Shown here one piece after another: positions 27,933 through 32,653 of a DNA stretch of 64,000 nucleotides; within the stretch, counting starts at the first letter, position 1; each line of letters starts with the position of its first letter. The DNA is from Roseovarius lutimaris (lineage in GTDB: Bacteria > Pseudomonadota > Alphaproteobacteria > Rhodobacterales > Rhodobacteraceae): positions 62,001 through 126,000 of the forward strand of contig NZ_FOVP01000011.1 of assembly GCF_900115165.1 (NCBI RefSeq), read 5' to 3'. Under the pieces are notes generated by a model that was not told the origin of the DNA, made no database searches, and worked only from the letters and a program-made list of their open reading frames with translations. The position numbers were made by a program, and so were the translations under genes.

Positions 27933-28316
27933 ATGCGATTGCTCTGCGGGATATTTCTGCCGCTTCTGGCGGCCTGCAACACGCCCGGTCATGAATTCCG
28001 CGGCGTTGATCCGGTGCGTGTGAGCATCGGCAAAAGCACCTTTGATGTGCGGGTGGATGGGACTTATGCCCAGGCGATCCGGCTCAACCCCGAATGGGCG
28101 CCCCGGTTCGAGGCGGTTGCGCCACGCGGGGCGATGGCGATGCAAAAGGTCAGCGGCTGCAAGATGGTACGGCTTTGGGGCGATCAGGCGGTGATGCTGG
28201 CGCGGCTCGACTGCGGGGCGGGCGTGCCGCCTTTGCCGCCGACGCTCGCCTATGACTGCGAGCTTGAGCATATCCATGGCGGCTATGCCGATCTGATCTG
28301 TCTGCCGCGCCTTTAA
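27933..28316 (+). CDS. small putative lipoprotein
   Basis: The 127-residue protein has a signal peptide and a lipobox LAAC with Cys15, so it should be a lipid-anchored periplasmic protein. The mature part has several Cys residues and a conserved-looking DVRVDGTYAQAIRLNP segment. I do not recognise a family. It is divergent from lrgA, and its stop overlaps the stop of the convergent GFA gene by four bases. Confidence 0.75.
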   Translation: MRLLCGIFLPLLAACNTPGHEFRGVDPVRVSIGKSTFDVRVDGTYAQAIRLNPEWAPRFEAVAPRGAMAMQKVSGCKMVRLWGDQAVMLARLDCGAGVPPLPPTLAYDCELEHIHGGYADLICLPRL

Positions 28317-28681
28317 GGCGGGTCAAGCCGCCAGGGCAGGTGTTCGTCCGTGTGATAATGCCCTGACGGGGTGATCGCGTCGGGGTGGTCTAGCAAGGCG
28401 GCATGAAAATGCATTTCATCGGGAAAGCGGTCGCTGGCATAGGCGAGTGAACTGCCGCAGGTCGCACAGAAATACCGCCGGTTGCCGGGGGAAGATTCAA
28501 AGCAGGTGGGGGCCGCGCCAATCCAGCTCCATTGCCCGTTGGGGTGCCCGACAAATGTGACAACGGCGGCCCCCGCGCCCCGGCGGCAACTGTCGCAATA
28601 GCAATGACCGGCCCAGTTGTGTGGACCCAGCAATTCGAACGTGACCGATTTGCAGAGACAGTGGCCTTTGATCGGTGTCAT
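28313..28681 (-). CDS. GFA-family (glutathione-dependent formaldehyde-activating-like) protein
   Basis: The 122-residue zinc-binding protein has the GFA cysteine pattern GHCLCKSVTF, HCYCDSCRRGAGA and FCATCGSSL. The family name comes from Gfa of Paracoccus, but most members have unknown substrates. ATG 28681 follows AGAGGAG. Directly upstream, in what would be its leader, lies a long stem with a G-rich loop. A frame extending to 28732 crosses that stem and is not favoured. Confidence 0.85.
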   Translation of the reverse strand: MTPIKGHCLCKSVTFELLGPHNWAGHCYCDSCRRGAGAAVVTFVGHPNGQWSWIGAAPTCFESSPGNRRYFCATCGSSLAYASDRFPDEMHFHAALLDHPDAITPSGHYHTDEHLPWRLDPP

Positions 28682-28700
28682 GTTGTCGGCTCCTCTCGAT

Positions 28701-28753
28701 CCGCCCCCTTGGCGGGACGCCCACCCACCCACCCCGTCCCGCCAAGGGGGCGG
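28701..28753 (-). other. 19-bp stem with G-quadruplex-type loop
   Basis: A perfect 19-bp inverted repeat (28701-28719 with 28735-28753) encloses a 15-base loop. On the minus strand the loop reads GGGTGGGTGGGTGGG, four G-triplets separated by single T, a classic very stable quadruplex motif. It lies 19 bases upstream of the GFA start codon, on the sense strand of that gene, and downstream of cobN. The 182 bases between it and cobN show nothing else convincing. Confidence 0.8.
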
Positions 28754-28936
28754 GTCATGGTGATGCTGGTCGCGCGATCATATCCGGGATGGGCGGTTTT
28801 GTCCGCTATATGAAAGCCAAGCGCGGCAAAAGTCGCGTGGTTTTCGACCAGTTCTATCCGGGTCTCCGGTGTGACGTCGGTGCGCCCCAGACCTCGCGGG
28901 TTTGAGCCATTGCCCTAAGCGCCGCGACACCGCCTG

Positions 28937-31900
28937 TCAGGGCGGGGGAGCACCCCGGCGTGCCGCCTCGATCCGCGCGCGTGCCGAGTTTGAGCGTGGC
29001 GCCCAAAGCCCGCGGTCAATCGCCTCGGCCAGCCGTTCAGCCATTTCGTGCAGGGCAGGGGCGTTGTGCTCAGCGATGAACGCGCGGGTGTCATCATCTT
29101 CCAGAAAGGCCGCCTCGACCAGATCGAAATGATGGCCGCGCACCGCGCCGGTGGTGGCGGCAAAGGCAAAGAGGTAATCCACCGTCGCCGCCATCTCGAA
29201 GGCCCCTTTGTATCCGTGGCGCTTGACGCCCTCGATCCATTTCGGGTTGACCACCCGGCTTCGAACGACGCGGCCGATTTCATCCTCTAGGGTGCGGATC
29301 ACCGGGCGTTCGGGGCGCGAATGATCATTGTGATAGATCGGGCGGTCCTGCCCTTGCAGGGTGCTGACTGCCGCTGCCGCGCCGCCTTCGAACTGGTAAT
29401 AATCGTCGCTATCAAGGATGTCGTGTTCGCGGTTGTCCTGATTTTGCACGATGGCTTCGGTCTGGCGCAGGCGGGTTTCAAACCCCTCTCGATCCCGGCG
29501 GCCCTCGTCGGCGCTGCCATAGGCATAGCTGCCCCATTCCAGATAGGCTTCGGCCAGGTCGGATTTGTCGGACCAGAGCCGTTCGTCGATCATCGCCTGA
29601 AGGCCGGCACCATAGGCCCCCGGTTTTGCACCGTAAACCCGCGCCTGCGGGCCCTCGACGCGCGCCCGCGCCGCCGCCGGATTGAGGTCATCGGGTTCGT
29701 CGAGCACCATGACCGCGCGCGCGGCCGAATCCACAAGCGCGATAAGCTGCGGAAAGGCGTCGCGGAAAAAGCCGGAAATCCGCAGGGTGACATCGACACG
29801 CGGGCGCCCCAAGACCCCTTGGGGCAGAACTTCAAACCCGGTGACCCGCCGATTGGCGGCATCCCACTTCGGTTTCACCCCCATCAGGGCAAGCGCCTGC
29901 GCGATATCATCGCCGCCAGTGCGCATATTGGCCGTGCCCCAGGCCGTCAAAAGCAGGCTGCGCGGCCAGTCGCCATGGGTCTGAAGGTGCTTTTCAATCA
30001 GCAGGTTTGCCGACTTCCACCCCAGGGCCCAGGCGGTTGGCGTCGGGATGGCGCGACTGTCGACAGAAAAGAAATTACGCCCGGTCGGAAGGACATCCAG
30101 ACGTCCCCGCGTGGGCGCGCCGGATGGCGCCGGGGCGACGAACTGCCCTGAAAGGGCGGTGAGAAGGCCCGCCCCTTCCATCGGTCCACAGGCGCGCAGG
30201 GTGGGGCGGACATGGGCCTCGGCATGCGCCAGAACCGCGCGGCTTGCCGCCCCTAGCGCGGGCGTCGCGCCCTCCAGAAGCTGCGAGGCCAGCTCTTCCA
30301 GCCGCTCGACCGTGTCGCCATTGCTGCGCCATGCGCCGGGCGCGGCATCCGCCAGAACCTGTGGCTTTACCCCGGTCCAGGGCGCGGCCATGTCGCAATC
30401 GAGCGGGTCAAACCCGAGGTCAAGATCCTGTGCCAATGCGCGCATGATCGAGGCGTCGCCCCCCGCCGCCTGATCGCGTGGCACCCTGAGCAGCGCCTGC
30501 AACAGATCGCGTTCCTGTCGCCCGGTCGGCGATTGGCCAAAGATATGCAGCCCGTCGCGAATTTGCGCCTCCTTCAGCTCGCAAAGATAGGCGTCAAGCT
30601 TGGCCAGGTCACTATCCTCATCCGCCCCTTGCATCCCGACATCCTTGTCGAGACCAGTGGCCGAACTCAGGCTCAGGATTTCGCGGCGCAGATGCGCAAT
30701 CCGGCGCGGATCAACGCCTGCGGCTTCGTAGTATTCATCGACAAGCGCCTCAAGATCGCGCAATGGCCCATAGGTCTCAGCGCGGGTCAGAGGCGGGGTC
30801 AGGTGGTCAATGATCACCGCCTGCGCGCGCCTTTTGGCCTGTGTGCCCTCGCCGGGATCGTTGACAATGAAGGGATAGACATGCGGCATCGGCCCAAGCA
30901 CCGCCTCGGGCCAGCACTCTTGACCAAGGGCCACCGCCTTGCCCGGCAGCCATTCAAGATTGCCGTGTTTGCCCATATGCACGATGGCATTGGCGCGAAA
31001 CTGATGGCGCAGCCAGAAATAGAACGCCAGATAGTTGTGCGGCGGCACCAGATCGGGCGAATGGTAGGTATCTGTCGGGTCAATATTATAGCCGCGCGCC
31101 GGTTGCAGGCCGACGACGACATTGCCGAATTCCAGCACCGAGAGGCTGAAATGCCCGCAGTCCAGCTCGCCGGGGGTATAGAACGGATCGGCCGCGGGCC
31201 TGCCCCAACGTGCATCAATCGCTTCGCGCAACTTCCAAGGCAATTGACCATAATCTATCTGATATTCGGCCATCGACAGGGTCACACCGCCTTGCCGCAC
31301 GGCCCGGTCGGTCAACCAGTTGGTCGGCCCCGCCATCACCGCCTGCATCAGGGCATCGCTGTCCGCCGGGGCATCGGTGACCCGATACCCGGCCTCGGCC
31401 AAAAGGGAGAGCGCATGTACCGTTGCGGCAGGCGTATCAAGGCCCACGCCATTGGCAAGCCGCCCGTCCTTGTTGGGATAATTGGCAAGGATAAGCGCGA
31501 CCCGGCGCTCGGGCGCAGGCGTTTGACGCAGGCGCGCCCAGTTGCGCGCGAGCTCGGCCACGAATTCCACCCGGTCGCCTTGCGCGCGATAGGTGGCGAT
31601 GGGGCATTCGGTGGCCTCGTCAAAGAACGCCTCGCCCTTGAAGCTTATGGCGCGGCTCAGGACACGACCGTCAACCTCGGGCAGGGCGACGTTCATGGCG
31701 ATATCGCGCCCCGACAGACCACTTAACCCCTCGGCCCAGGCCTCTTCGCTCGACCCGGCAAGTACCACCTGAAACACCGGCGCAGCATTGGCGGCGGGCA
31801 TGGCGAGCGGGTTCACCGGGCTGTCATCGCCCGCATGCGGCGAGCCGACAGCGAAGGAGGTGCAATTGAGGATCACGGACGGCGGGGCCTCGGTGAAAAG

Positions 31901-32653
31901 ATACTCAAGCGTGGCGGTCGAGACCGGATCTTTCAGGGAGGCCACGAAAATCGGTAGCGGATTGAGACCCGCCCGCAACAGCGATTTGACCAGCCGGTTG
32001 ATCGGGTTAAGCCCCGCCCCCTGCACCAGGGCGCGGTAAAAGATGAGCGGCACGACAGGTTGGTCTTCGCCCCAGCTGGCGCGCGCCGCGTCAAGGCCAG
32101 CGACACCCGAGCCGGGCCAATAGACCCCCGCGCGCAAGAGCGGGCTTGCAGCGGCGGGTTTCTCGCAGTGCTCGATCATCGCCCTGGCATACCCCAGAAA
32201 ATTCGCCGAATTTTCTGGGCCGCCCTCAACCAGATAGGCCCAGAGGGCATCATAATCCTCGTCAGCCACCGTCGAGAGATCGCGCAGATCGGCGTCGGGT
32301 TTGTCGTCGCCGGGCAAAAGCGCCAGCGGCACGCCCGCCTCGTGACAGCGCGCGGCAAACTGTTCGGCGCCATACTTCCAATAGCCGGTGCCGCCCAGCA
32401 CCCGCGCGATCACCAGCCGTGATTTTGTGGCACAGTTGTCCAGATGCAGATCGACTGACATCGGGTGTTGCAGATGGGTAAGATTGGCCAGCCGCAAACT
32501 CGGCGCGCCGGTCATCTCCGCGCGCGCGGCGCTCAGCGCCGCAAGCTCGGTATCGGCGGCCGAGATGAACACGACATCGGCCGGGCTCTGGCCCAGATCG
32601 ACCGGCTCCTTGCCGTCATCAATGGCTCCGGGGGTGGCGGCAAGAAGGTGCAT
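28937..32653 (-). CDS. cobN: cobaltochelatase subunit CobN
   Basis: CobN is the large subunit of the aerobic-pathway cobaltochelatase, which with CobS and CobT inserts cobalt into hydrogenobyrinic acid a,c-diamide using ATP. The 1238-residue length is normal. Typical stretches are HMGKHGNLEWLPGK, YPFIVNDPGEGTQAKRRAQA, WGTANMRTGGDDIAQAL and RVDVTLRISGFFRDAFPQLI. The start ATG 32653 gives MHLLAATPGA; an extension to 32704 would have no ribosome-binding site. CobS and CobT are not in this window. Confidence 0.96.
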   Translation of the reverse strand: MHLLAATPGAIDDGKEPVDLGQSPADVVFISAADTELAALSAARAEMTGAPSLRLANLTHLQHPMSVDLHLDNCATKSRLVIARVLGGTGYWKYGAEQFAARCHEAGVPLALLPGDDKPDADLRDLSTVADEDYDALWAYLVEGGPENSANFLGYARAMIEHCEKPAAASPLLRAGVYWPGSGVAGLDAARASWGEDQPVVPLIFYRALVQGAGLNPINRLVKSLLRAGLNPLPIFVASLKDPVSTATLEYLFTEAPPSVILNCTSFAVGSPHAGDDSPVNPLAMPAANAAPVFQVVLAGSSEEAWAEGLSGLSGRDIAMNVALPEVDGRVLSRAISFKGEAFFDEATECPIATYRAQGDRVEFVAELARNWARLRQTPAPERRVALILANYPNKDGRLANGVGLDTPAATVHALSLLAEAGYRVTDAPADSDALMQAVMAGPTNWLTDRAVRQGGVTLSMAEYQIDYGQLPWKLREAIDARWGRPAADPFYTPGELDCGHFSLSVLEFGNVVVGLQPARGYNIDPTDTYHSPDLVPPHNYLAFYFWLRHQFRANAIVHMGKHGNLEWLPGKAVALGQECWPEAVLGPMPHVYPFIVNDPGEGTQAKRRAQAVIIDHLTPPLTRAETYGPLRDLEALVDEYYEAAGVDPRRIAHLRREILSLSSATGLDKDVGMQGADEDSDLAKLDAYLCELKEAQIRDGLHIFGQSPTGRQERDLLQALLRVPRDQAAGGDASIMRALAQDLDLGFDPLDCDMAAPWTGVKPQVLADAAPGAWRSNGDTVERLEELASQLLEGATPALGAASRAVLAHAEAHVRPTLRACGPMEGAGLLTALSGQFVAPAPSGAPTRGRLDVLPTGRNFFSVDSRAIPTPTAWALGWKSANLLIEKHLQTHGDWPRSLLLTAWGTANMRTGGDDIAQALALMGVKPKWDAANRRVTGFEVLPQGVLGRPRVDVTLRISGFFRDAFPQLIALVDSAARAVMVLDEPDDLNPAAARARVEGPQARVYGAKPGAYGAGLQAMIDERLWSDKSDLAEAYLEWGSYAYGSADEGRRDREGFETRLRQTEAIVQNQDNREHDILDSDDYYQFEGGAAAAVSTLQGQDRPIYHNDHSRPERPVIRTLEDEIGRVVRSRVVNPKWIEGVKRHGYKGAFEMAATVDYLFAFAATTGAVRGHHFDLVEAAFLEDDDTRAFIAEHNAPALHEMAERLAEAIDRGLWAPRSNSARARIEAARRGAPPP

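Follow-up and report, generated by a model that had tools for sequence, protein, structure and literature searches.

KOPS, Chi and similar polar octamers have an orientation that is fixed to replication. From what is generally known of them, they differ from the element described here in being short sequences and not structures, in having far more copies, and in carrying their G-rich strand on the other replication strand. A G-quadruplex has also been studied in Paracoccus denitrificans, which belongs to the same order as the organism of the present work, Roseovarius lutimaris. That quadruplex, GGGAGCGGGACGGGGGCCGGG, lies 150 nt upstream of nasT, was studied as a lone G-tract, and alters expression when stabilised by a ligand (PMC5123632); it is intergenic, like the element, and the accessible text of that report does not describe it as held in a stem (PMC5123632). 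The nearest in working principle is the pilE G-quadruplex of Neisseria gonorrhoeae, a chromosomal quadruplex for which orientation matters and which is tied to transcription through it (PMC3547852). It is found at one locus, has a role in recombination, and is presented in the accessible text with no mention of a long stem (PMC3547852), whereas the element has many copies, each in a stem, and is replication-polar across a family. The TMECO, a G/C-rich intrastrand triplex motif of E. coli, is likewise a G-rich structured intergenic repeat (PMC4666352). As far as the accessible part of the source goes, its stems are more conserved than its loops, and it has neither a strand bias nor a specific distance to genes (PMC4666352); the element is the reverse in all three respects and does not have the TMECO features. 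REP palindromes are also intergenic and numerous in a genome, and are described in the accessible text as having stems of 6-13 bp (GTAG) or 8-9 bp (CGTC), a terminal tag and mostly short loops (PMC3733652), in contrast to the stem of about 15-22 bp, free in sequence, and the 15-nt quadruplex loop of the element. No report of such elements was found in the open-access literature that was searched, which is weak evidence for the literature as a whole, and the pairing of G-quadruplex with Rhodobacteraceae led to work that, by its title, concerns carotenoids.

The window, a stretch of 64,000 nucleotides, holds at 28701-28753 a perfect 19-bp stem that encloses a (GGGT)3GGG loop on the minus strand (Table 1). 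This is the longest of the five perfect hairpins listed for the window (arm of at least 11, loop of at most 30). A rescan confirmed the exact arms and the loop that had been described from the letters alone, and the 19-base gap between stem and GFA start codon given in that sequence-only reading is correct. The loop is a G-quadruplex motif, with four G-runs of at least three and short loops between them; a control with the reversed motif was uninformative, as the motif is its own mirror image. Given that the stem and the quadruplex use different bases, the two can form together. In a folding model with quadruplex energies (RNA model), 18 of the 19 stem pairs are retained and the energy goes from -45.4 to -82.7 kcal/mol, the quadruplex gain of about 37 kcal/mol being a model figure that should not be taken at face value. 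The quadruplex may also form in cells. Among five orthologous copies at this locus, five stem pairs have changed on both sides, in an alignment whose outermost columns are less sure owing to the short row of genome G014. In the loop, G-runs 1, 3 and 4 are intact in all five, run 2 is broken in G014, and spacers 1 and 2 are variable; in G024, one arm and most of the loop have apparently been deleted. Two further observations were made: each arm may fold on itself, giving a three-hairpin form, and a perfect 13-bp palindrome with a 1-base loop lies inside cobN at 32193-32219.

Table 1. Features at the element locus (window coordinates)
Feature	Position	Strand	Remarks
Small gene, C-rich strand	27933..28316	+	Lipoprotein-like by reading of the protein; no Pfam match
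GFA gene	28313..28681	-	PF04828, E 1.1e-18; start codon 19 bases from the stem
3' arm of stem, G-rich strand	28701..28719	-	19 bp, perfect
Loop (GGGT)3GGG, quadruplex motif	28720..28734	-	CCCACCCACCCACCC on the plus strand
5' arm of stem, G-rich strand	28735..28753	-	Exact complement of 28701..28719
GNAT-like gene remnant (C-terminal part)	28702..28890	-	tblastn 76% over residues 21-83 of the G001 protein
cobN	28937..32653	-	PF02514; next full gene upstream, G-rich strand

In the 4.28-Mb genome from which the window (contig C37) was taken, (GGGT)3GGG occurs four times, always in the loop of a long stem and with four different stems, which speaks against a chance occurrence; two further copies have a C spacer. 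In the genus (60 genomes), the core is present, with no more than one mismatch, at 76 places in 29 genomes, and 50 of these places, from 15 genomes, have four intact G-runs. All 50 intact places, which include orthologous copies, have a stem of -26.8 kcal/mol or better, versus only one of the 26 places with a broken run (RNA parameters, loop held open), and for this single exception a second genome holds an intact version whose stem is almost identical. The loop pattern missed some copies (e.g., that of G039), and the association of intact loop with strong stem holds for the places listed. These strong stems bear out the proposal that the hairpin is a dedicated structure. Named genomes were also scanned: 119 loci hold 125 intact sites, and a stem of -24 kcal/mol or better is present at 121 of these, with a search pattern that itself required the inner pairs.

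When 37 copies are aligned, all 19 pairs covary, with changes on both sides. The covariation score is 0.890 versus 0.194 for shuffled alignments, and 91.3% of the cells are paired, a share that drops to 53.0% on shuffling and to 39-48% on sliding. None of the 12 G in the four runs varies among these copies, which were collected by that same motif. Because the copy sets derive from the loop pattern, directly or through a model made from it, G-run conservation cannot be read from them. In 1.2 Mb that had been sampled to measure skew, there are 33 hairpins with loops of 10-20 nt versus 7 after block shuffling, and six of the 33 have four intact G-runs. Seven of the hairpins have a 15-nt loop, six of them of the element type (five intact, one with a single break), and the element-type hairpins are all from genome G129, with none in the 0.4 Mb of G003. 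In 68 regions upstream of betA, a copy is present in four (three intact, one with a broken run); the regions are the best 70 of 107 matches less two in which no betA start was found, one of these being G141, which has a copy listed by the covariance model. The sequence-only reading had held that copies with a variable loop would point to a random repeat, and the relatives show the opposite, namely copies that keep the loop and change the stem. The window hairpin is one copy of an apparently undescribed family of Rhodobacteraceae DNA elements. Computation shows the family, its covariation and its kept loop and, as discussed below, which strand folds, where the element lies relative to genes and, by the proxy of GC skew, its polarity.

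Of 198 family genomes, 47 have a match to the covariance model (E <=0.001), with 1 to at least 28 matches per genome; 28 candidates were scored per genome under stricter filters, so that the copy numbers are lower bounds. In a sample of 289 genomes across the class, with 19 candidates scored per genome, the element appears only in the window's own genome (E <=1e-4). Among the 80 of 119 loci that are listed for the named-genome scan, most are from Rhodobacteraceae and some carry only a broad name, and there are single matches titled Streptomyces, Wenjunlia, Myxococcales and Synergistaceae, that of Streptomyces having no strong stem. A scan by pattern alone, without scripted stem scoring, counted 474 places in G096 and 348 in G077. 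Two observations were made alongside: a stretch around CTTCCGTGGTGGGTGGGAGTGGGGGGTGAGTGGAAGGATG is conserved across genera (G000:C31:70687, G129:C1:355563, G155:C13:38195) and may be part of an RNA gene, and in the window's assembly at least about 90 consecutive G run from about position 29120 of G000:C38, perhaps as an assembly artefact.

The previously described kinds that were compared do not account for the element: REPs, TMECO, intrinsic terminators and the Rfam families each fail on a tested feature. With the covariance models of Rfam 15 run over 18 loci (E <=5), eight matches were obtained, all below the gathering score and none over the element. The possibility of a REP- or MITE-type mobile palindrome, to which the sequence-only reading had alluded with its mobile mini-element, was weighed in the same way. 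REPs, too, lie near stop codons, and the element has many copies in some genomes, is intergenic and is placed near stop codons. Nonetheless, its stems differ widely: 97 of the 171 pooled stems are left as distinct after removal of similar ones, and the copies of one genome do not share a stem as REPs do, the six copies of the window's genome having six stems, some partly similar. Around the stem base of 220 copies, GTAG was counted 8 times, CTAC 0, CGTC 20 and GACG 38; these are raw counts over two 20-base stretches that include the outer stem, taken with no shuffled control, and no REP tag is judged by eye to be enriched. The position between betB and betA is, moreover, shared by 13 loci with different stems. 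The exception is genome G129, where six copies share a stem, and where a longer intergenic repeat carries the element, given that the two comparable copies (L150 and L170) are alike over about 270 bases, with mismatches, and have the same polarity. This repeat speaks for mobility, but the mobile mini-element as a whole is not supported, and a mobile palindrome is a very improbable explanation of the family.

The six G129 copies with nearly the same stem are at C1 72424, 442132 and 684235, C7 935224, and C9 81266 and 210278. A motif near AGTATTTnGGnCAAGAAGAAG was seen to recur after elements on the C-rich strand (L074, L082, L086, L112, L114 and others), was also noted upstream of betA at L370 and L428 and at L150 and L170, and forms inverted pairs of its own; it is absent from the window at up to two mismatches. 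Turnover of the element is high, with an intact listed copy in 15 of the 60 genus genomes, a model match in 47 of the 198 family genomes and a copy in 4 of the 68 betA upstream regions, and its function is therefore dispensable or replaceable.

The stem alone folds on both strands, and the mismatches that it contains were used to discriminate between them. A first count on the 37 aligned copies gave, for the G-rich strand versus its mirror image, G.T 20 versus A.C 7, G.A 29 versus C.T 7, and G.G 9 versus C.C 4. The same count was made on 81 of the 97 distinct stems, the 16 with fewer than 12 Watson-Crick pairs in ungapped register having been dropped and the closing pair and stem ends excluded. 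It gave G.T 46 versus A.C 4, G.A 31 versus C.T 7, and G.G 21 versus C.C 1, a total of 98 mismatches tolerated by the G-rich strand versus 12 of the mirror kinds; only T.T, with 4 versus 0 for A.A, shows the opposite trend. Mutation bias is a poor account of this pattern, as the three kinds of change at C are all favoured at once. Given that the bias favours the kinds of mismatch that the G-rich strand tolerates, this is most likely the strand that selection keeps folded. G.G, G.T and G.A are tolerated in DNA, and the pattern fits DNA mismatch stability, although by itself it does not tell DNA from RNA. In a subfamily (e.g., L082, L085, L099, L101), the outer stem was observed to read ATCGCC...GGCGAT, with tandem GA/GA mismatches in the middle of the stem on the G-rich strand.

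The position relative to genes was obtained for 220 copies with unique context and a stem of -24 kcal/mol or better, including one poly-G core and a handful of copies that do not come from the family, with a simple gene caller that missed GFA in the window. A gene on the C-rich strand precedes 170 of these copies, with 94 lying between two co-directional C-rich-strand genes and 76 between convergent genes. A further 26 lie between two G-rich-strand genes and six between divergent genes (one of these called inside a gene), and the remaining 18 lie within called genes or at the ends of contigs. The window copy in fact sits between two G-rich-strand genes; it was counted as convergent because the caller missed GFA. 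Where a C-strand gene precedes the copy, the stem, taken as 19 bp, starts -5 to 20 bases from the stop codon in 118 of 176 cases, versus 17 of 102 for the G-strand genes on the other side. Some positions recur across genera: besides the betB-element-betA arrangement, where the 13 loci fall in one cluster, the element lies between mccB and mccA at five loci and before an agmatinase gene at seven (gene names by reading of the proteins).

The closeness to the stop codon, and the fact that both strands can fold, could be explained if the element were a hairpin with a C-rich loop at the 3' end of the mRNA of the upstream C-rich-strand gene, acting as stabiliser or terminator. An intrinsic terminator was rejected, given that no T-tract follows the stem on either strand: TTTT is present in the 3' flank of 12 of 220 copies on the C strand and 15 of 220 on the G strand, versus 41 of 1100 random 23-mers, so that ordinary intrinsic termination is not the route. 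A scan for terminator-like sites gave none at 28250-29000, with loops of 3-8 only, a range that is blind to this hairpin. For the co-directional copies, the next start codon is at most 60 bases away in 30 of 94, for which reason the element is probably not a strong terminator in the direction of the genes; transcription of the C strand probably has to pass it. The mismatch bias, moreover, is the reverse of what an RNA of the C strand would need, and the polarity described below persists without a preceding C-strand gene (16 of 17 copies). An mRNA 3'-end hairpin is, taken together, quite unlikely.

The direction of replication was approximated by the local GC skew. It was used in preference to dnaA, which was dropped as origin marker, because dnaA of G129 lies inside a stretch of uniform skew. 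Enough sequence (6 kb or more) was at hand for 150 copies, the flank of the other 70 of the 220 being too short; the skew of the C-rich strand is positive in 136 of the 150 and negative in 14. With an absolute skew above 0.03, the ratio is 118 versus 2, with the G-rich strand as the template of leading-strand synthesis. Removal of similar stems leaves 81 versus 8 in all and 73 versus 0 with a clear skew; the genus set alone gives 48 versus 2 and the scan of 119 loci 107 versus 14. Base composition alone would favour the opposite orientation for a G-rich motif. Of the 17 copies between two G-rich-strand genes, 16 keep the polarity, which means that it is not a by-product of gene direction. The window copy is neutral on this point, since its local skew is near zero (-0.002 over 8 kb, +0.016 over 64 kb).

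In two genomes rich in copies, the orientation of the model matches listed is uniform along each contig. Among the model matches listed for G129, 17 on C1 and C7 are on the minus strand and nine on C8, C9 and C10 on the plus strand. In 20-kb samples, the first 1.4 Mb or so of C1 and the part of C7 past roughly 0.3 Mb have mostly positive skew, and C8, C9 and C10 have negative skew; a few stretches are near zero or reversed. By contig skew, the G-rich strand is the leading-strand template for all 26 listed matches, of which that at C7 250692 lies at a change of skew sign. Clustering near the terminus or the origin was considered and is not claimed: among the places that the pattern scan lists for G129, no intact copy lies on C1 beyond 1.08 Mb, in an assembly of unordered contigs. 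In G155, the listed matches are five on the plus strand of C40, three on the minus strand of C11 and four on the minus strand of C4. With GC skew as proxy, the element is replication-polar.

A mechanism that may underlie these features, and the favoured one, is a one-way barrier against traffic that runs against the replication fork, which is put forward as possible and with tentative confidence. The G-rich strand, which by GC skew is the template of leading-strand synthesis, would fold into a long stem topped by a three-layer quadruplex. Forks and RNA polymerases going from origin to terminus would pass, and machines going against the fork would be slowed or stopped. For transcription against the fork, the G-rich strand would be both the transcript and the non-template strand, and in a back-running fork the replicative helicase would run on it. 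The blocking is proposed as one-way because only machines moving against the fork would produce a G-rich transcript, free the G-rich strand from its partner or have a helicase travelling along it. Placed behind the stop codons of leading-strand genes, the element would keep head-on antisense transcription out of those genes. Such a barrier would explain why the G-rich strand is the one that folds, why it is the leading-strand template, why the element lies behind stop codons and why C-strand transcription apparently passes freely. Against it stand the high turnover of the element and the approximately 26 copies with both neighbours on the G-rich strand, where the sense transcript would be hindered.

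The polarity could also result from survival alone. Long hairpins on the lagging-strand template are prone to deletion, this strand being often single-stranded; if the element had a local role at the 3' end of genes, such as a template-strand pause for the upstream gene, copies with their G-rich strand on the lagging-strand template would be lost and those with it on the leading-strand template would be left. Polarity and the place behind stop codons would both be accounted for, and the partly deleted appearance of the window locus in G024 is in agreement with this. Given that the stem alone forms on both strands, such a filter would have to act through the quadruplex, and it would have to be strong to give the bias of 73 versus 0. 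A block on the template strand would, in addition, hurt the downstream gene where its start is as close as it is in 30 of the 94 co-directional copies. Filtering by survival is nearly as good an account as the one-way barrier, and is considered doubtful. An explanation that is unlikely, and more so than this filter, is that the element serves as a structural landmark for a protein that organises or repairs the chromosome, in the manner of KOPS or Chi. Polarity and the scatter over several contigs would be expected of a landmark, but the G-rich strand is, as generally known, opposite to the KOPS and Chi strand of E. coli, and placement at gene ends would be unneeded. To return to the one-way barrier, its broader form, which is a tentative but real possibility, is that the genome is marked by a shape and not by a sequence. 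In many members of the family, any stem with a quadruplex cap, in one orientation to the fork and mostly at gene ends, may serve as a one-way valve between replication and transcription, both sense and head-on.

At the window locus, the order on the minus strand is cobN, GNAT-like remnant, element and GFA, facing the small gene of the plus strand. In G001, the GNAT-like frame extends through the element (with a weak PF00583 match), and 33-34 bases separate the stop codon of the small gene from the loop centre; in the window, small gene and element have GFA between them. In both G001 and G010, the element is directly behind the small gene, and no GFA was found at the locus. A late insertion of GFA between the small gene and the element was considered and dropped, given that GFA is near the small gene in eight of the 29 other genus loci examined; for the same reason, its loss in G001 and G010 is more likely.

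These arrangements bear on the proposal that stem and quadruplex form a switch in the GFA leader. The short distance to the GFA start is in its favour, and G039 (element intact) and G014 (one G-run broken) have the element in front of GFA as well, which keeps the idea of a link with GFA alive. Given that two relatives keep the element without GFA, however, a dedicated GFA switch is unlikely. Stem and loop, using different bases, have no need to compete, and most of the 220 copies are outside leaders. The leader switch suggested by the sequence-only reading is not supported, and the chance that it explains the element appears slight; the roadblock after cobN that was proposed with it is possible.

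Whether bacteria use quadruplexes or only tolerate them is an open question, and this family bears on it: the stem has been replaced repeatedly in evolution, without loss of the G-runs, of the ability of the G-rich strand to fold or of the orientation relative to the fork. The copies, including versions with a broken loop and partly deleted ones, are natural sites for measuring quadruplex folding, fork passage and head-on transcription. If the reading as a barrier is true, this abundant family of marine bacteria would have in the element a general means of countering head-on conflicts.
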